Shown one piece after another: positions 5,335-38,243 of a DNA stretch of 38,243 nt. The DNA is taken from the IMG/VR virus record IMGVR_UViG_3300021335_000037, positions 1 through 38,243 of that record; one strand, given 5' to 3'. Position 1 is the stretch's first letter. Every line of letters starts with the position of its first letter. The notes under the pieces were generated by a model that saw only the letters and a list, made by a program, of their open reading frames with translations, was not told the origin of the DNA and searched no databases. The DNA comes from a virus. A program made the position numbers and the translations under genes.

Positions 5335-5352
5335 CGATAGGGGGACATAAGT
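5335..5352 (-). promoter_or_regulatory. Predicted phage RNAP promoter, late genes
   Basis: The minus strand reads ACTTATGTCCCCCTATCG. It shares the ACTTATGTCCCCCT core with sites near 13.79, 16.35 and 19.87 kb. Placed with its last G as +1, it matches the T7 consensus at -14, -13, -11, -9, -7, -5, -4, -3, -2 and +1. It precedes the tail and ejection genes. Confidence 0.7.
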
Positions 5353-5438
5353 AAATGGGTCTTACTATGGGCAGCAGTGGGGATTATAGCGCCAATCTCA
5401 TGGCACATACCACTGCTGCTCACCTGTCTCTCTCTCTT

Positions 5439-10815: not shown

Positions 10816-10850
10816 CAAAAAGAAAAGGGGCATCCCTCAGGACACCCCTT
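10816..10850 (-). terminator. Rho-independent terminator after primase-helicase
   Basis: On the minus strand an 11-bp stem (AAGGGGTGTCC with GGATGCCCCTT, loop TGAG) is followed by TTTTCTTTTT. Two of the pairs are G-U in the minus-strand RNA but would be A-C mismatches in the plus-strand RNA, so the element is directional. Nearly the same sequence ends the capsid gene. Confidence 0.9.
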
Positions 10851-10930
10851 CTCGTCTAGCTTCTCTTATGCACGGATTGTAGGCGAGGCTTACTCAGCCC
10901 TAATACAAAGCCCCGTGCGGCCTGTATTCC

Positions 10931-13775: not shown

Positions 13776-13793
13776 CGTAAGGGGGACATAAGT
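13776..13793 (-). promoter_or_regulatory. Predicted phage RNAP promoter, SSB operon
   Basis: The minus strand reads ACTTATGTCCCCCTTACG, with the proposed start at the final G. It lies in the 60-nt gap between the RNAP stop and the small gene that leads the SSB operon. It carries the same 14-nt core as the sites at 5335 and 19861. Confidence 0.7.
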
Positions 13794-13801
13794 GTTCCCG
13801 G

Positions 13802-16319: not shown

Positions 16320-16359
16320 TCTTTGTCCCCCCGTGGATAGGCGTTAGGGGGACATAACT
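16320..16359 (-). promoter_or_regulatory. Predicted phage RNAP promoter with inverted repeat before RNAP gene
   Basis: The promoter core AGTTATGTCCCCCTAACG is at 16342-16359 on the minus strand, with one base differing from the other sites. Its GTCCCCC is repeated in inverted form as GGGGGGAC at 16324-16331, giving a dyad around the start site. The dyad ends just before the RNAP Shine-Dalgarno site, so it could affect both transcription and translation of the polymerase gene. Confidence 0.6.
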
Positions 16360-16383
16360 AAAACTGTAGTAATTAGGGGTGTT

Positions 16384-17199: not shown

Positions 17200-18033
17200 T
17201 CACGCGCTCTTAGCCAAATCAGCAGCGATAGAACGCATACTTGATGGCTTAATGTGGATATATTTAGCGGTAGTAGCCGGGTTCCTATGCCCTAGCCATT
17301 GACCAATGATATCACTATTAAGTTTCAGCTCATTAGCCATATGTGATGCAGCGGTATGCCGGAATACATGAAACACAAATTGCTTATCGCCCTTCGCAAT
17401 TAAATAACGCATTCGATCCCAAAGTCGATAAAAAACCTTTTCGCTATAGGCACTACCTTGTAAATTAAGCGCTGCCTGTACGGCTCTGGGCTCGATAATT
17501 GGCACTGAGCGGTCATCACCATTCTTAGTATCTTGCAGGTCTACCCATAGAATACCGTCCTGATCACGCTCCAAATAGGCGTTAGTGCCTTTTATGAGAC
17601 CTTGGATCTCGCCATGGCGTAGCCCTGTAAACCGCGCAAGTATGCACATGTCACGGAACCAGCTCTCTATGCGGTTACTGTTGATGTAATTGTCTATCTT
17701 TACCAACTCTTCAGCAGTAAAGTATCTGATGCGGTTCTTCTCCCGGTGCGTTTCGATTTCGAAATACTGATGCTCAAGGCCGCTCTTACGGGCGTGTGTG
17801 AGCAGCCGGGATACAGCTGCCACGTACCTATTTACGCTGGCCTTAGATAGCCCCTTACGCAGCTCTAAAGTGTCCATGAAGTCATAAAGCTTCTGAGCGG
17901 TTACATTCTTTATTTCTATCTGCGGATTGAGGCTACAGAATTGCTCAACCCGTCTAAATGCTTCTGCCCGGTGCTTAGCTGTACCTTTCCAGATACGATG
18001 TGAATTCTTATTGAGATAATCTTTTACTAACAT
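17200..18033 (-). CDS. int: Tyrosine recombinase (phage integrase)
   Basis: This 277-residue protein has an N-terminal SAM-like core-binding domain (about 1-95) and a catalytic domain with the full active-site set: R139 (TGLRHGE), K170, H222-x-x-R225 (HVFRHTAAS), H249 (LGHR) and Y258 (TTAKYIH). AGGAG lies about 9 nt before the ATG. It would recombine phage attP with a host attB, and the candidate attP is about 1.75 kb upstream in the same direction. It is compact, without an obvious long arm-binding domain. Its presence implies at least a capacity for lysogeny. Confidence 0.97.
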   Translation of the reverse strand: MLVKDYLNKNSHRIWKGTAKHRAEAFRRVEQFCSLNPQIEIKNVTAQKLYDFMDTLELRKGLSKASVNRYVAAVSRLLTHARKSGLEHQYFEIETHREKNRIRYFTAEELVKIDNYINSNRIESWFRDMCILARFTGLRHGEIQGLIKGTNAYLERDQDGILWVDLQDTKNGDDRSVPIIEPRAVQAALNLQGSAYSEKVFYRLWDRMRYLIAKGDKQFVFHVFRHTAASHMANELKLNSDIIGQWLGHRNPATTAKYIHIKPSSMRSIAADLAKSA

Positions 18034-19733: not shown

Positions 19734-19815
19734 CTACTTGTGTGTAAATCTTAGGGAAATACTGGGGTTCTTACCCCCAACCTGCTGATTAGAAGTCAGC
19801 TGGCCGCACAAGTAG
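19734..19815 (-). other. Structured early leader with tRNA-Arg(TCT)-like arm; candidate attP
   Basis: On the minus strand CTACTTGTG (19815-19807) and CACAAGTAG (19742-19734) form a 9-bp closing stem. Inside are a perfect anticodon-type arm GCTGA-CTTCTAA-TCAGC (19800-19784, anticodon TCT) and a GGGGT-AAGA-ACCCC hairpin (19777-19764). The stretch from TGACTTCTAATCA to AGGTTGGGGGT matches the phage tRNA-Arg at 33778-33802 except for two bases that keep the stem paired. It lacks a D arm and a normal T loop, so it is not a tRNA gene. It lies in the integrase module and is the best attP candidate. It also begins at the expected transcript 5' end. Confidence 0.6.
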
Positions 19816-19860: not shown

Positions 19861-19878
19861 ATATAGGGGGACATAAGT
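19861..19878 (-). promoter_or_regulatory. Predicted phage RNAP promoter upstream of early region
   Basis: The minus strand reads ACTTATGTCCCCCTATAT, with the same core as the other three sites and CTATA as in T7. It stands 9 nt upstream of the sigma70 promoter, so the phage RNAP could re-transcribe the early region, including integrase, later in infection. Confidence 0.65.
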
Positions 19879-19948
19879 AAAAAACAAAAAGACTGCTAAT
19901 AGACTACAACAGGGGATCTGTACGGTTGCCTACGTCTGCGGTTTCTTA

Positions 19949-27304: not shown

Positions 27305-27339
27305 AGCAAAACAAAAGGGGCATCCCTAAGGACACCCCT
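27305..27339 (-). terminator. Rho-independent terminator after capsid gene
   Basis: On the minus strand AGGGGTGTCC, loop TTAG, GGATGCCCCT (10 bp with two G-U pairs) is followed by TTTTGTTTT. It lies 26 nt after the capsid stop, in the position of T7 T-phi. The core is the same as the element at 10816-10850. Confidence 0.92.
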
Positions 27340-27364
27340 ATTCGTTGAGCTTTATGTGCAGAAC

Positions 27365-31683: not shown

Positions 31684-33255
31684 TTATACCATCTCAATGT
31701 AAAGTTCATTTGGGGTCTCCACGGGTTCCCACGCGCCCTCATGCACGTAGTTCGCCAGAGCTAAGCTCATCACACAGTCATCAAAGCAAGAGGGCTCAGC
31801 TTCCATGCTGCCGCTCTCTGTGACGATATAAGTGAGCATTTCTCTGATAGTGGTTTTGTCATTTAGCTCCAGCTCACACTCACGCATTGACGCCCGGAGC
31901 TGGTCTATGATTAGAGGTTTAGTTTTAGCTGTTGTGCTGAAGCCTAGCTTTACGGTCTCCCGGTCAGTAAGCTTGTCATGCTGCACTTCAGTATAAAAGT
32001 TGGGATAGTTAAGGTCTTTACCTAGCCGGGTGCATGTCAGGATGCCGTGGCCGTTATTCTCTACAATGATAAATGCTTCATTATAGTAGTCACCCAGCGC
32101 GTATAGCACCTCCGCAAAGTAGTCAGGATGCACTTGGCCTCGCCATGTAGCCACCTGACGTTTCTTGCTATCGAGTACTTGAGCCACACTAAAGTCACCA
32201 TTTCTAACTCCCATCGCTACGTCAGCGCCAATGATATATCGCTCACCCTCATCGTGGTCTCTGTAAGTGGTAAGCTCACCACGGGCATGATTTACCCATT
32301 CGTCTGTTTCTAATGCCAGCCGCTGCTTTACATCCCGTGTATCATCTAGCAAGTCTACGAGCTGGTCTGGATTGAATACAGGCCGCCCGGTGGTAAGGAA
32401 GGCCTCATCTGGGTAGCTGGGAAACTCTTGCCGAAAAAGGTCGATGCCGTTTTGCGCTATCTTACGTCTACGAAACATAAGCTGCTGGTCATCGAGCTTG
32501 TACTTTTCTACCAGCTCAGTTTCTTCCGGGGTTCTCTCAAACTTATCTGGTACAGCCTCCCGGTACTCCGGGTCTGTAAACCACGGTATAAAGACCGGGA
32601 TGAAACCGTTAGTACCATCTTGGGCTCCCTTCCACATATTGTAGAAAGTCCCATTTACGCCATTAGCCGTACTCTCTACGAATACTGCTGTTCCCTCAGC
32701 GTTTGGTACAGCCTGTATAAGGCCATTCCATGTTTCTTCAGCATTACTTTTAGGCCAGAAAGCCAGCTCTGATGCGTGGACGCAGGTAAGGGTCTCTCCC
32801 CTGCCAACCGCTTCGCCCCCAGCTGTTGCGACAATGTAACTGCTATCGAGAACGTCAAAGCTTAACTCCCGTCTAGATGAATACTTAGTGGATGGTTTTA
32901 GTATCTCAGGACAATTCTGATGATATCTTTTAGTCATATCAAACAGCGCTCTGGTACTGTCGCTATGGTGGGTAATCACCATTGCTTTACGCGCTTTGTT
33001 TTGACTTACACTGAAATAGAGGTAGCCGCCCACATAAGTGGATAGCCCCTGCTGCCGGGCTTTCAATATTATGACCCGTATCTTACCTTCAGTTTCAAGC
33101 TGTCTGGTTATTGCGTCATCGAGTATTTGTTGGGCGTTATTTAAAACTAAAGGGGCTACATCGCCCCTTTTTGTTCTAATCTTTAATGCTGCTTTAGAGT
33201 AATATGCAAAATCAGTGTGTAGTCTCTTGCGGATCTCTTTCAGCTTCTTGTCCAT
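31684..33255 (-). CDS. terL: Terminase large subunit
   Basis: This 523-residue packaging motor has a terminase-type Walker A (KARQQGLST, residues 65-73), a Walker B glutamate (E163 in CVHASELAFW) and a RuvC/RNase H-like nuclease domain with D345 (GADVAMG), E399 (IIVENNGHG) and D492/D493 (FDDCVMSLAL). AGGAAGAG precedes the ATG. The start overlaps the small terminase gene by 44 nt. It cuts concatemers and drives DNA into the procapsid. Confidence 0.95.
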   Translation of the reverse strand: MDKKLKEIRKRLHTDFAYYSKAALKIRTKRGDVAPLVLNNAQQILDDAITRQLETEGKIRVIILKARQQGLSTYVGGYLYFSVSQNKARKAMVITHHSDSTRALFDMTKRYHQNCPEILKPSTKYSSRRELSFDVLDSSYIVATAGGEAVGRGETLTCVHASELAFWPKSNAEETWNGLIQAVPNAEGTAVFVESTANGVNGTFYNMWKGAQDGTNGFIPVFIPWFTDPEYREAVPDKFERTPEETELVEKYKLDDQQLMFRRRKIAQNGIDLFRQEFPSYPDEAFLTTGRPVFNPDQLVDLLDDTRDVKQRLALETDEWVNHARGELTTYRDHDEGERYIIGADVAMGVRNGDFSVAQVLDSKKRQVATWRGQVHPDYFAEVLYALGDYYNEAFIIVENNGHGILTCTRLGKDLNYPNFYTEVQHDKLTDRETVKLGFSTTAKTKPLIIDQLRASMRECELELNDKTTIREMLTYIVTESGSMEAEPSCFDDCVMSLALANYVHEGAWEPVETPNELYIEMV

Positions 33256-33730
33256 TGGTTTGCTCTTCCTGTAGTAGCCCTTCTAAGAAGCTCTCAGCCT
33301 GACTGATAGCCATCTCTGATTTGCTAGCTGGTTTCTGTTTAGTGAAATCGAGTACAAGCCTAGCTGCTGCCAGCCTGTCTCTGGTGGCATCAGGTGAACG
33401 CATCACCTCTACAGCGGTGGTTAGAGCCTCTTTGGCATAATTATCTTCTACGCCTATCTTCTTAGCCATAACATCTACTACCTTTTCTGCTTCGCCTCTC
33501 AGCTGCTCCCTGAGAGGTTCTATGGTGTGTTTACGATGCCCATCAGGCACCCCTAAAGGCCTACCAGCGTTCTTACGCTTTTTGGTAGACCACTCTTTGC
33601 GTTTAGCTCTCCCCTCTGGTGTTTCCATCAGGGTTGCAAAGTAATTCTTTTTAGGGGCTCTTTGTGGGTGGCTGCCATTGCCATATCGTGGCGGGGCTTT
33701 TGCCCGTTGCTTTCTTGGTTTATCTGTCAT
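33212..33730 (-). CDS. terS: Terminase small subunit
   Basis: This 172-residue protein sits directly upstream of terL. It has a very basic N-terminus (about 1-60; AGRPLGVPDGHRKHT at ~55-69), a helical core with ATRDRLAAARLVLDF typical of small terminase oligomerisation regions, and an acidic Gln/Glu-rich tail. GAGG stands 9 nt before the ATG. It would recognise the phage DNA and regulate the large subunit. Its upstream gap holds the plus-strand tRNA gene. Confidence 0.8.
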   Translation of the reverse strand: MTDKPRKQRAKAPPRYGNGSHPQRAPKKNYFATLMETPEGRAKRKEWSTKKRKNAGRPLGVPDGHRKHTIEPLREQLRGEAEKVVDVMAKKIGVEDNYAKEALTTAVEVMRSPDATRDRLAAARLVLDFTKQKPASKSEMAISQAESFLEGLLQEEQTNGQEAERDPQETTH

Positions 33731-33747
33731 ATAAGCTCACCTCATGC

Positions 33748-33824
33748 GGTTCCGTAGCTCAACTGGATAGAGCAATTGACTTCTAATCAATAGGTTGGGG
33801 GTTCGAGTCCTCCCGGAATCGCCA
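33748..33824 (+). tRNA. tRNA-Arg (anticodon TCT)
   Basis: The 77-nt sequence folds as a full cloverleaf: acceptor GGTTCCG/CGGAATC (one G-U pair), D stem GCTC/GAGC, anticodon arm ATTGA-CTTCTAA-TCAAT, T arm GGGGG-TTCGAGT-CCTCC, discriminator G and encoded CCA. It decodes AGA and AGG. It is the only plus-strand gene and fits exactly between the gp16-like stop (33828) and the small terminase start. No promoter is evident on the plus strand. It shares its anticodon region with the leader element at 19734-19815. Confidence 0.95.
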
Positions 33825-33827
33825 ATC

Positions 33828-36800
33828 TTATATGGAGAGTGCGCCCTGTCCTAAGGCTAGTGCGCCTTTCTTTTGCTCTTCCTCTTCTTCGCCCAGCTGC
33901 ATAGTCGCAAGGATTGTTGCTACTACCGCAGCAAACGGTGCGCTATAGAATTCTACAAAGTTGGAGCTTGGCGCACGGGCGCTATTAAGCATTATCTGCA
34001 CAAACCTAGCAGCGTTAGGTGCGTTCTTCTTGAAGCCTTTAGGGTCTGTAAGATACATCCCAATCATGTCAGCTGCTAGCTCCTGAGGAGTATGGAGATA
34101 ACCTGTTTCATGTTCTCTCATCTCTCTAAATCTCTCATTTTGAAATGTTTGCATCTCAGCTGGAGAATAGCCCCTCTTACGCGCGTTATGGATACGGCCA
34201 GCCATCTCCATATATTCATCACGAACCCTAAAATCCCCAGCGTAGTTAGATAGTATGCCCGTCCTCTGCATATTAAGTACTTCATCTATAATATCTTGAG
34301 CATCTTGCTGGGTCACATTCATTATTGTGCCACGGTCTGCCGGGTTCTTTCTAGAATGACCGCTGGTTGCGTCTATAATCTGTGTCAAATACCCTCTAAA
34401 TGTTTCGGTGAAGGTAGAACGTGCGTAACGGACGCTCCCCTTTCTATCTAGGTATGCTCCCATTTGAGCTGGCTTTTCGGCTGCTTGATAGGGAAGGCGT
34501 TCAATAGCATGGCCTAGCTCATGCATCATTACGAAGATGCTTTCAGCCAAATCCATTTTATAGGTTTTATTAGGCGCAAGACCCATGATAAAACCTTTAA
34601 CTCTCTGGCCTGTAGTCCTGTCCATTACATCACCATCTGGAGATGGAACAACAGCATTTAGACCTTTAGCTTTACCTTTGAGTTTATTGCGAGTACGCGC
34701 ATGCAAGTCCCTCTTCATGTCAGTAGGGTTCTTGTACATTAAAAATGCGTAGTTTAGAGCTTCGGCTATTTTCTGCGCTGCTTCAATTGTCAGACCATTC
34801 TCAAACGGTGTACCTGACATACCAACAGGAATAGGCTGGCCGCTAGCAAATAAGACTTCAATAGCCTCTAATTGTTGTCTGATGAGATCAGCATCGGCCG
34901 GTCTGCTGGGGAGCGTGGCAAGCCCACCGGATCCACTGTCGAACCCTCTGCTATACTCAATGACTGTTTCTTCAACGCTAGTTCCTCTAGCCCCTGTATC
35001 AGCGCTTCCATCTTGTCCGTCTGGGCTGCCTGTTCCACCAAAGAGCCTGTTTCGCTCTGCATCGGGGAGTGCTTCTTTGATCGCATCGTCTGAAATCCCT
35101 TCTTTATTGGCTGCAAGTATGGCTGCATCCAGATAATCGTTATCCTCACCTTTGCCTTTTGCAACGCCCAGCTTACGCGCCAGCTGCTTTTCCGGGTACC
35201 ACATTAAGGCTTGGAAGTCAGCTGTATTTATATCATATCCCTGCATGATTAACAACTCACGCGCCCTAGCAACAGTGTTACGCATAAACTGGCGCTCACT
35301 CCCATGTTTAGGGGCGGCTTGCAGCTGTGGGTCTAGGTTTTTAACGTGTGTACCTGTTTTCTTGAATAGTTCAGGTTTCTTATGGTTCACCCCATTTGCT
35401 GTCTTGTAGGCCTTATAAAATGACTGATAATCACTTTCCAAAGCGCGTATAAATGCATCAAAGCGCTCTGCATCTTTATATAGACCTTTGCGCTCTTCCC
35501 CTGTCTTTTTGAAAGTGTCCTTAATAATCTTAGCCATCTGCTTACTGTCAGCTAGTGCAGCTCTCGCATCTTCCAGCTTTTTACCAGCATTAGGCTCTGC
35601 CTCTAGCGCTTTAACTTGCGCGGTTTGTTCTTTGATTGTAGAGCTTAATCCTTTGATACCTTCCGCAATTAGTCTGCGGTTTTTATTCATGTTCTCTTCT
35701 GTTTTAGGTGGGGTGAAGGGGCGGCCTATCATCCTGTTCCACATTCGCATCCACCATAAATCGGCAGTAAGAGGCTCATAGTTACCCCTAAGGTTCTGAT
35801 AAAAGCCCTGTCCAATTTTAGCGCCAAGCACATAGCTGCCTTTTACAAGCGCATCCGCATTTTCTTGGTTGCCTAATGTGAATTCAGTTTCATTAGCCTC
35901 ATTGAAATCATCTAGATATTCCTGTAGTTCCCGGACAGTGAAATCTGTATCTAGGAACATATCTATAGGCATATTTCTGCTAGCTTTTTGGTAGGCATTA
36001 TAAAACTTAAAGCTGGCTACCATTGCCTTATTACGTTCACCACCTTGCTTGAAGTTCTCAGGCATTTGGCCTGTATCTAGAAACGTCCTAAATCCATCTA
36101 AAGCGTATTTAAAGTTTTCTGTTACAGCCTGACCGTTAGATGTAACGGCTAGTATATAATCAAACGCTGCTTCGTTCTGTTCTAAGCGTGGTTCAACTAG
36201 CTTCAAAACAGCTTTAGCAGCCTTCAGCTTTGCATCATACCAGCCAATAGCATTGCTATCTTTTTGCAGCGCACGTAGTGCCTCTGTAGCCATCATACGT
36301 GCAATACGTTCCATGTTCTCCGGGGTGTATTCTAGCGGTTCGCTTTGCCCTGCCGCTTCTTCCCACTTTTCTTGCAGTTCGCCATAAACTCTTTCTTTCT
36401 TCTTAGCTTCAGCTGGCTTAAAGCTACCATCTTGCATCGCGCCCAGCTCTTCGTCTGTGGGCAGTATATCCATAGCAGTGAGACCCATATCATCACCAAC
36501 ATCAAACGGATCTTCGTTGATTAAGTCGCTGCTGCTGAGATTGATATCCAGCTGCTCACGGCTGCCATCTTTAGGCTCTACACGTATCTGGTCATATACC
36601 GGGTGCATGTTACCCTGCCCGGTTCGTATGTAGCCGATTGGCTCACCTAACGTAAATTCGCCATACCCGCTAGGGCGTAGAAAGGGCTGATTACCAGCAT
36701 TAATATTGCCACGGTCTTTATCCAGCTCTGTAGGTACATTGGTTTGCAGGTCGGTTGTGTAGTAATGTTTATTGCCGGAAACAAATGCTACTAGAAACTC

Positions 36801-38207
36801 TTGGTCGTTTTCAGTTCTAGAATTACCGTCCGGCTGGTTTACCCATGTCCAAAGGTTGTTTGTTTTCTTACCATTCTTAGAAACATTAAACTTCTTGAAT
36901 AGGTTAGTCTTGAAGCGCTTGCCTGAGCTTTTATCTGGCTTGGCATCTTGCTGCTGCGAGGCATCCACTTCCATACCACCAAACCCATTAGGGTTTATGT
37001 AAATACGTGCGCCATCATATGTATTACCAGATATAACCTCACCAGATGGCATAGCCACATACTGGCCTTCAGGGTCATATGCACCTAAGACATTTACACT
37101 TTGTTTTGGTGGTACAGGGCGTACAGCTTGGCCTTGTCCTATCTCAGGCACTGCTGCCTCGATGTCCAGCTCTTGCTGCCCGGCTACCCGGTTGATGTAT
37201 GGCATTAGGTACTTATCGGCTAACGCTGGGTCTGACAGCTGCCGCTCAGCGTCTACACCCACCTGCTGCGCTTTGTTTACCGGGTCTAAACCTAAGTTAC
37301 CCCGTAAATCTTCCAGAGCGCTTAGCAGAACCACCTTATCCCTTGGGCTAATAGAAGTATCATTTGATACCTCATCAGCTAAACGGTCTGCTGCCTCTCT
37401 GTTTGCCTCGATGCCGCGCACGTACCCGGCTGATACATCTCTAGGGGCTGGAGCTACGCCTGTAGCGGTACTGCCGCCCATAGCTGGTACTGGGGTAGTG
37501 TAGTTCTCTGAGAGTTGTGCTGCTAGCTGCGGATTTGCTAACTTAGAATACTCAGGATTGTTAGTGGCTACAGTCTTAATCTCTCTAATTAGGCCTGTTA
37601 GACCCTCGAAGTCCCCGGCATCTGCGGGGCGCTGGCCTGTCACACTGTCAATAAAGTCACGCGCTGGCTGCGCTAGATTAGGGTCACGCGCTGCAACATC
37701 TCGCGCAATCTCCATGATTACTTCTGTAGGCAAGCCGCCTGTCGCAATGATCATAGTTGCTTCAGGGCTACCAGCTGCTGGTAAATTACCTCTAATAAAC
37801 GCATCCTGTCTGCGGTCTTGCTCACGCTGGTTAGATAGCGCTGTTTCCAAAACATTAGCTGCTTCTAGCGCCCGCGCCTGTTCCAGCATTGATGGCTCAG
37901 TGAGCGAGGTCATACCCTCACCCTTGCGGTTCTTGTTTACGTATTTGTTTACTCTAGAGCGGTTGCCTGTGACGGCATCGATTGCCCGGCCAGCTCCTAC
38001 AGCTGCTGTCTGGCCAAGTAAGGACAGACCATAAGTGTTTGTAGCAATACCGCCTGAGATGAGAGGCCGCAGCAAGCGTTCAGCGTTTTGAGCGCCCCGG
38101 TCATACCCGATACCTACGCCAAATGGCATTAACTGGTCGGTAAACTGCGATACGCCACCTTGAAAACCAGCGTTATGCAATTTAGTAAGCTCATTAGTCT
38201 TACGCAT
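33828..38207 (-). CDS. Large internal virion protein, T7 gp16-position, with HELGH metallopeptidase motif
   Basis: From the ATG at 38207 the protein has 1459 residues (T7 gp16: 1318). The frame is also open to the window end, so it could be longer if the molecule is not circular. It is mostly Ala/Gln/Glu-rich helix. Near the C-terminus a zinc-protease motif H1229-E-L-G-H1233 is followed by E1376 in QELAADMIG, a plausible third ligand with the E-x3-D pattern of gluzincins. No lytic transglycosylase motif is evident. By position it is the gp16-like ejected protein, and a peptidase could help to cross the envelope. Confidence 0.75.
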   Translation of the reverse strand: MRKTNELTKLHNAGFQGGVSQFTDQLMPFGVGIGYDRGAQNAERLLRPLISGGIATNTYGLSLLGQTAAVGAGRAIDAVTGNRSRVNKYVNKNRKGEGMTSLTEPSMLEQARALEAANVLETALSNQREQDRRQDAFIRGNLPAAGSPEATMIIATGGLPTEVIMEIARDVAARDPNLAQPARDFIDSVTGQRPADAGDFEGLTGLIREIKTVATNNPEYSKLANPQLAAQLSENYTTPVPAMGGSTATGVAPAPRDVSAGYVRGIEANREAADRLADEVSNDTSISPRDKVVLLSALEDLRGNLGLDPVNKAQQVGVDAERQLSDPALADKYLMPYINRVAGQQELDIEAAVPEIGQGQAVRPVPPKQSVNVLGAYDPEGQYVAMPSGEVISGNTYDGARIYINPNGFGGMEVDASQQQDAKPDKSSGKRFKTNLFKKFNVSKNGKKTNNLWTWVNQPDGNSRTENDQEFLVAFVSGNKHYYTTDLQTNVPTELDKDRGNINAGNQPFLRPSGYGEFTLGEPIGYIRTGQGNMHPVYDQIRVEPKDGSREQLDINLSSSDLINEDPFDVGDDMGLTAMDILPTDEELGAMQDGSFKPAEAKKKERVYGELQEKWEEAAGQSEPLEYTPENMERIARMMATEALRALQKDSNAIGWYDAKLKAAKAVLKLVEPRLEQNEAAFDYILAVTSNGQAVTENFKYALDGFRTFLDTGQMPENFKQGGERNKAMVASFKFYNAYQKASRNMPIDMFLDTDFTVRELQEYLDDFNEANETEFTLGNQENADALVKGSYVLGAKIGQGFYQNLRGNYEPLTADLWWMRMWNRMIGRPFTPPKTEENMNKNRRLIAEGIKGLSSTIKEQTAQVKALEAEPNAGKKLEDARAALADSKQMAKIIKDTFKKTGEERKGLYKDAERFDAFIRALESDYQSFYKAYKTANGVNHKKPELFKKTGTHVKNLDPQLQAAPKHGSERQFMRNTVARARELLIMQGYDINTADFQALMWYPEKQLARKLGVAKGKGEDNDYLDAAILAANKEGISDDAIKEALPDAERNRLFGGTGSPDGQDGSADTGARGTSVEETVIEYSRGFDSGSGGLATLPSRPADADLIRQQLEAIEVLFASGQPIPVGMSGTPFENGLTIEAAQKIAEALNYAFLMYKNPTDMKRDLHARTRNKLKGKAKGLNAVVPSPDGDVMDRTTGQRVKGFIMGLAPNKTYKMDLAESIFVMMHELGHAIERLPYQAAEKPAQMGAYLDRKGSVRYARSTFTETFRGYLTQIIDATSGHSRKNPADRGTIMNVTQQDAQDIIDEVLNMQRTGILSNYAGDFRVRDEYMEMAGRIHNARKRGYSPAEMQTFQNERFREMREHETGYLHTPQELAADMIGMYLTDPKGFKKNAPNAARFVQIMLNSARAPSSNFVEFYSAPFAAVVATILATMQLGEEEEEQKKGALALGQGALSI

Positions 38208-38243
38208 CACGTTGATAAGCTCACTACCCTCTTTAGTATTGCC

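Follow-up and report, generated by a model that had tools for sequence, protein, structure and literature searches.

Truncated attachment site and intact tRNA-Arg(TCT) of a marine T7-like phage point to tRNA-dependent lysogeny

Integrase, attachment site and tRNA gene of the phage

The window, by which we mean the whole stretch of DNA analysed here, is a 38,243-base virus record that we assign to a T7-like phage by gene content: it encodes a T7-like RNA polymerase, DNA polymerase, primase/helicase, portal, capsid and terminase proteins, a ribonucleotide reductase and a tyrosine integrase. A search with half of the window returned no cultured phage with a DNA-level match, and the nearest cultured terminase, that of Roseobacter phage CRP-7, is 38% identical to its counterpart in the window. 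A 21-nt repeat, AGGGGGACATAAGT, occurs at four intergenic sites (5335–5355, 13776–13796, 16342–16362 and 19861–19881) and, judged by position, is perhaps a promoter for the phage's own RNA polymerase. Two 45-nt copies that are 87% identical (10818–10862 and 27308–27352) contain a GGGGCATCC..GGACACCCC hairpin and are likely terminators. The features that concern integration are as follows.

17200–18033, − strand: tyrosine integrase gene, 277 aa (phrog_1 integrase, E = 7e-35)
19734–19815, − strand: attP with flanking inverted arms, CTACTTGTG (19807–19815) and CACAAGTAG (19734–19742), read from the sequence
19773–19802, − strand: attP core, from the anticodon stem to the first T-stem strand, 30 nt identical to the host tRNA-Arg(TCT) gene
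Right side of the attP: GCAGGTTGGGGGTAAGAACCCC
33212–33730, − strand: 172-aa gene, left neighbour of the tRNA gene, adjoining the large terminase gene
33707–33735, + strand: promoter-like TTGCTT-17-TATAAG, ending 12 nt 5′ of the tRNA gene; weak (8/12) and overlapping coding sequence
33748–33824, + strand: intact phage tRNA-Arg(TCT), the proposed spare (ARAGORN, Rfam RF00005 and comparison with the host gene)
33828–38210, − strand: 1460-aa gene, right neighbour of the tRNA gene

The tRNA-Arg(tct) at 33748–33824 was the sole tRNA called by ARAGORN in the window, and its Rfam score of 67.5 bits, against a gathering score of 29, agrees with the first-pass annotation of this DNA, in which the phage was said to carry an intact tRNA-Arg separate from its attachment site but of the same anticodon. 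The gene occupies a gap of less than 100 bases, and both flanking genes lie on the opposite strand. The 172-aa gene on its left is probably the small terminase, judging from its position; a PHROG search gave no match for it, and its matches at the corresponding place in two relatives (G017 and L290) are 76–82% identical. A consensus promoter scan at a threshold of 9/12 found none before the tRNA gene.

A second tRNA-like site was first detected at 19773–19798 (−), 92% complementary to an arm of the tRNA, with 0 such sites expected by chance. Its exact identity to the host tRNA-Arg(TCT) gene covers 30 nt, CAGCTGACTTCTAATCAGCAGGTTGGGGGT (19773–19802, −), and ends after GGGGGT, inside the T arm, where the phage reads AAGAACCCC and the host TCGAGTCC; the match had been described in the first reading as lost at just this point. 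The anticodon stem of the core, GCTGA/TCAGC, is that of the host gene, whereas the stem of the phage tRNA is ATTGA/TCAAT, a compensatory difference that had likewise been read correctly. The core lies approximately 1.7 kb upstream of the integrase gene, and the catalytic-type residues of the integrase (R139, H222, R225, H249 and Y258) are invariant in the alignment of its family. Inverted arms like those of the window also surround the core in two further loci (L020 and L023), and such arms could possibly serve as integrase arm or accessory sites. A T-arm-like hairpin (GGGG..CCCC) is kept at 19773–19750 (−) of the window and in the same place in G006, G007 and G013; the truncated sites that keep it span several lineages and have lost the acceptor strand, and the hairpin may be either a relic or needed for something.

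Host gene and predicted outcome of integration

A scan for the whole tRNA, in which the outer stem positions were left free, found 17 genomes, mostly SAR116. All 17 carry the GCTGA/TCAGC stem, as does the attP and as the first-pass annotation had anticipated for the host, and the ATTGA/TCAAT stem of the phage tRNA was found in none of them. The host of the window phage was assigned from this sequence match between attP and tRNA-Arg(TCT). The target appears non-redundant: of 16 genomes searched, many of them incomplete, 15 have one copy of the gene and the sixteenth has two matches on two contigs. Several intact host copies had been named beforehand as a finding that would count against a back-up role of the phage tRNA, and at most this one genome might show it.

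ARAGORN called no tRNA in either hybrid junction of the window, whether the host 5′ half was followed by the attP or the left side of the attP by the host 3′ half, and at the native offset the window hybrid forms 3 of 7 acceptor stem pairs, compared with 7 of 7 for relatives that carry the full 3′ half, whose hybrid junctions all yield a tRNA by ARAGORN. In silico, neither junction of the window phage would thus rebuild a functional tRNA, in accordance with the earlier proposal that insertion here breaks the host gene. The hybrids of G006 and G007 are still accepted by ARAGORN, with two acceptor mismatches, and loss of the tRNA on integration is less certain for these two phages.

The integrase family does integrate, because a prophage of the family sits in a rebuilt tRNA-Lys gene. 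In a genome of the SAR116 order (G317), a prophage of 39.9 kb, which has an integrase of the family and a 78% identical terminase, is flanked by two tRNA-Lys(TTT) 5′ parts, each ending just past the anticodon arm; one end of the prophage carries a complete tRNA-Lys, which by its position combines a 5′ half from the phage side with the 3′ half of the host gene, and the other end carries the orphaned host 5′ half. In phages that carry a tRNA 5′ half the repeats stop directly past the anticodon arm, and in phages that carry a 3′ half they begin at this arm; the crossover therefore probably lies within it. A group I intron (Rfam, 73.8 bits; L443 7306–7543 (−), near 392,300 of G317:C1) lies beside the match to the capsid gene of this prophage. 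The capsid match is shortened at the intron, which may split the major capsid gene.

Attachment sites and tRNA genes across relatives

The core is present in 21 viral contigs. In most of them the match reaches the CCA end, so that integration would restore the host gene; in the window and in L003/L004, L010, L011, L019, L020, L023 and L024, it ends within or close to the T arm. When whole records were searched for tRNAs, all long records with a truncated attP (G000, G006, G007, G013 and G017) contained an intact tRNA-Arg(TCT), whereas none was found in the core-bearing records with a full attP; the remaining truncated records (G001, G002, G014 and G018) are fragments.

A scan with the integrase alignment gave 80 loci, and the tRNA searches were extended to further records. 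Reconstituting attP sites proved to be of two kinds, one carrying a full tRNA 3′ half (with Arg-, Phe-, Met- and Cys-type anticodon loops) and one carrying a 5′ half (Tyr-, Asn- and Phe-type); most relatives thus restore the tRNA gene on integration, which the window attP would not. The 5′-half kind was observed in G041, G048, G052, G053, G056, G070, G071, G073, G074, G076, G082, G086 and the G317 prophage, and with such a site the phage supplies the 5′ end of the tRNA together with whatever drives its transcription after integration. In a further record (G058, L149 27–103) a complete tRNA(CAT) lies at the extreme contig end beside an integrase gene and is probably a rebuilt prophage junction.

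Among records longer than 25 kb, a cognate intact tRNA accompanied a truncated attP in six of six cases (five Arg, one Ser), and any intact tRNA accompanied a reconstituting attP, of either the 3′- or the 5′-half kind, in 0 of 21 (exact test, 3e-6; 1e-4 with close relatives merged), although kinship among the phages limits the weight of this comparison. The tree requires four changes, two of them forced; the independent contrasts number just 2–4, of which two are on well-supported branches, and both go as predicted. In these counts visual reading placed the attP of G030 among the full 3′ halves, G044 was scored by inference as reconstituting, its integrase being identical to the one in G048, and G072 was left out, having no recognised attP; an Rfam search for the attP in L117, L134 and L163 returned nothing. 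Because the search pattern behind the truncated Arg cases demanded the core, other kinds of truncated site may be under-sampled. The comparison supports the idea, put forward in the first-pass annotation, that the phage tRNA backs up a target damaged by integration. Relatives with the full 3′ half in their attP, cited there as a possible counter-case, do exist and favour the back-up reading, because they have no spare tRNA.

The single Ser case, G088, carries tRNA-Ser(GCT), and its attP, 0.85 kb upstream of the integrase gene, consists of the anticodon and variable arms of tRNA-Ser(GCT) and is broken in the T arm; a second isotype therefore follows the same rule. This phage additionally has a tRNA-His that is unlinked to its attP.

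The window, G024 and G017 have the spare tRNA-Arg between the 1460-aa gene and the 172-aa gene beside the terminase, whereas in G006, G007 and G013 it is located approximately 3.4 kb beyond the DNA polymerase gene; relative G010 has just a short gap where the first group holds the tRNA. These two genomic places, together with the gap in G010, suggest that the spare was acquired at least twice. Orientation against the lytic genes was considered as a constant feature of the spare and rejected: it holds in the window and G017, and in G006, G007 and G013 the tRNA runs with the neighbouring gene.

Probable tRNA-dependent lysogeny, alternatives and known systems

The window phage has a tyrosine integrase of its own, an attP core that matches the inside of a tRNA gene of SAR116-type genomes, a target that is mostly single-copy, hybrid junctions predicted to lack a tRNA, and an intact tRNA of the disrupted isotype, and we consider it very likely that this phage uses tRNA-dependent lysogeny. 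Recombination by the integrase would join the attP to the host's one tRNA-Arg(TCT) gene at its anticodon arm, where the crossover is placed by inference. With an attP comprising the anticodon arm and the T-arm start only, neither junction would contain a working tRNA, and the lysogen would for that reason depend on the complete phage-borne tRNA-Arg(TCT). In the relatives, related integrases would act on attP sites with a whole 3′ or 5′ half, by which the gene is rebuilt, and no spare tRNA is carried. The common core in described cases is short (approximately 10 bp), and the 30-nt core of the window departs from this; we treat core length as descriptive and the failure to rebuild the tRNA, seen here in silico, as the defining point.

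Integration might instead be rare or abortive, with a decaying attP and a tRNA acquired by chance and unimportant for lysogeny. In keeping with this, the integrase-family search found no prophage with a truncated attP among 136 genomes of the SAR116 order, no truncated junction occurs among the 21 core-bearing viral contigs, and T7-like cyanophages are described as integrating without stable lysogens being obtained (PMC8776855). Against it, the integrase is intact with its catalytic-type residues conserved, its family forms prophages, and core and tRNA have been retained together across several divergent lineages, all of which makes decay unlikely.

Support for the translation of AGA codons during lytic growth has been proposed for many phage tRNAs, and the likeness of the tRNA to the attachment target would then be coincidental. 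tRNA-Arg(TCT) is indeed frequent in marine phages of many kinds, with at least 120 matches listed in marine viral contigs, and CRP-7 has the tRNA but lacks both an integrase of the window's family and a second core copy, so tRNA-Arg(TCT) can be carried for other reasons. However, AGA use fails to separate carriers of tRNA-Arg (9.4–14.3 AGA per 1000 codons) from non-carriers (4.9–16.3, same genes), and the heaviest AGA user, G088 (31.4 per 1000 codons), has Ser and His tRNAs instead; these figures do not support an explanation by codon supply. Nor would a role in translation explain why the attP is truncated in carriers but not in non-carriers, and we regard it as quite improbable here. Under a further reading, the phage tRNA would replace host tRNA-Arg that an anticodon nuclease of the host has cleaved, and the altered stem of this otherwise host-like molecule would confer resistance. 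The idea draws on phage tRNAs as counter-defence in the literature (a possible extra selection according to PMC10865867), but the anticodon loop is unchanged and the idea predicts no link with attP truncation; it is very improbable.

tRNA-dependent lysogeny has been described and genetically tested in mycobacteriophages (mBio 2024, PMC10865867), where its evolutionary origin and its prevalence outside actinobacteriophages are called unclear. Like the window phage, Fionnbharth, LeBron, Gaia and other actinobacteriophages in that study combine a tyrosine integrase with an attP too short to rebuild the tRNA and a cognate spare, their relatives with full cores have no spare, and crossover is presumed to occur in the anticodon region. 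Their cores are approximately 8–17 bp and their hosts Actinobacteria, compared with 30 bp in a marine T7-like phage; the truncated sites of the window's family target tRNA-Arg(TCT) or tRNA-Ser(GCT), and, unlike the actinobacteriophages, this family also includes the type that restores a 5′ half. Similar in phage type and host are the Lo5R7ANS-like prophages of Sinorhizobium meliloti, T7-like and in an alphaproteobacterium, whose integration inactivates a different target, tRNA-Leu(UAG), which a prophage copy replaces (PMC11476347). That replacement tRNA is closer to those of other alphaproteobacteria (97.6%) than to that of its host (80.6%), whereas the window tRNA departs from the host type at two stem pairs only; when the first 27 kb of Lo5R7ANS were searched by anticodon loop for its attP, only the tRNA itself was found. 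Integration has also been shown for the cyanophages S-TIP37 and P-SSP7 and for the HMO-2011-type roseophage CRP-3 (PMC8776855, PMC6918029). These phages and the pelagiphages, all marine and T7-like, resemble the window in having an integrase and an attP matching a host tRNA gene, but the available parts of the reports describe no spare tRNA that replaces the target, and the core of CRP-3, unlike that of the window, overlaps the tRNA 3′ end.

Our searches of the open-licence literature found no report of tRNA-dependent lysogeny in SAR116 or marine T7-like phages. The mechanism is already known but little documented; what is new is its probable occurrence in marine T7-like phages, with unusually good natural comparators. 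Within one family, related integrases are associated with three solutions (restoring the 3′ half, restoring the 5′ half or carrying a spare), which provides natural pairs for testing how phages switch among them. The family also offers a specific explanation for the single tRNA gene of some small phages, and the present case fits a route by which viruses live inside a host without killing it.

The altered anticodon stem of the spare deserves separate consideration. The first-pass annotation took the two stems to mean that attP and spare derive from different tRNAs, which is not required: the window tRNA and the SAR116 gene agree at 73 of 77 positions, and the four that differ make up two compensated anticodon-stem pairs. 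The differences of G021 from the SAR116 gene are likewise confined to this stem, with a partly different set of pairs, and the tRNAs of G006, G007, G013 and G017 differ there and elsewhere. No bacterial gene identical to the window tRNA was found; G446 has the same stem and was rejected as a source, with 12 differences elsewhere compared with 4 in total for the SAR116 gene. In all five Arg phages the tRNA differs from the phage's own attP by 2–3 stem pairs. Compensated changes of this kind would keep the tRNA fold while altering the presumed core-binding arms of the integrase, and could perhaps shield the spare from recombination by the phage's own enzyme, a suggestion that we make tentatively from these comparisons. 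The stem difference is by itself too weak as proof of escape: among alphaproteobacterial tRNA-Arg(TCT) genes the anticodon stem shows natural variation that covers every type seen in the phages, and the tRNA-Ser of G088 differs just slightly from its attP. In Fionnbharth and LeBron, too, the tRNA-Lys departs from the attP flanks at the pair beside the loop. If the shielding idea is true, the stem changes suggest a testable rule for carrying a copy of one's own integration target.
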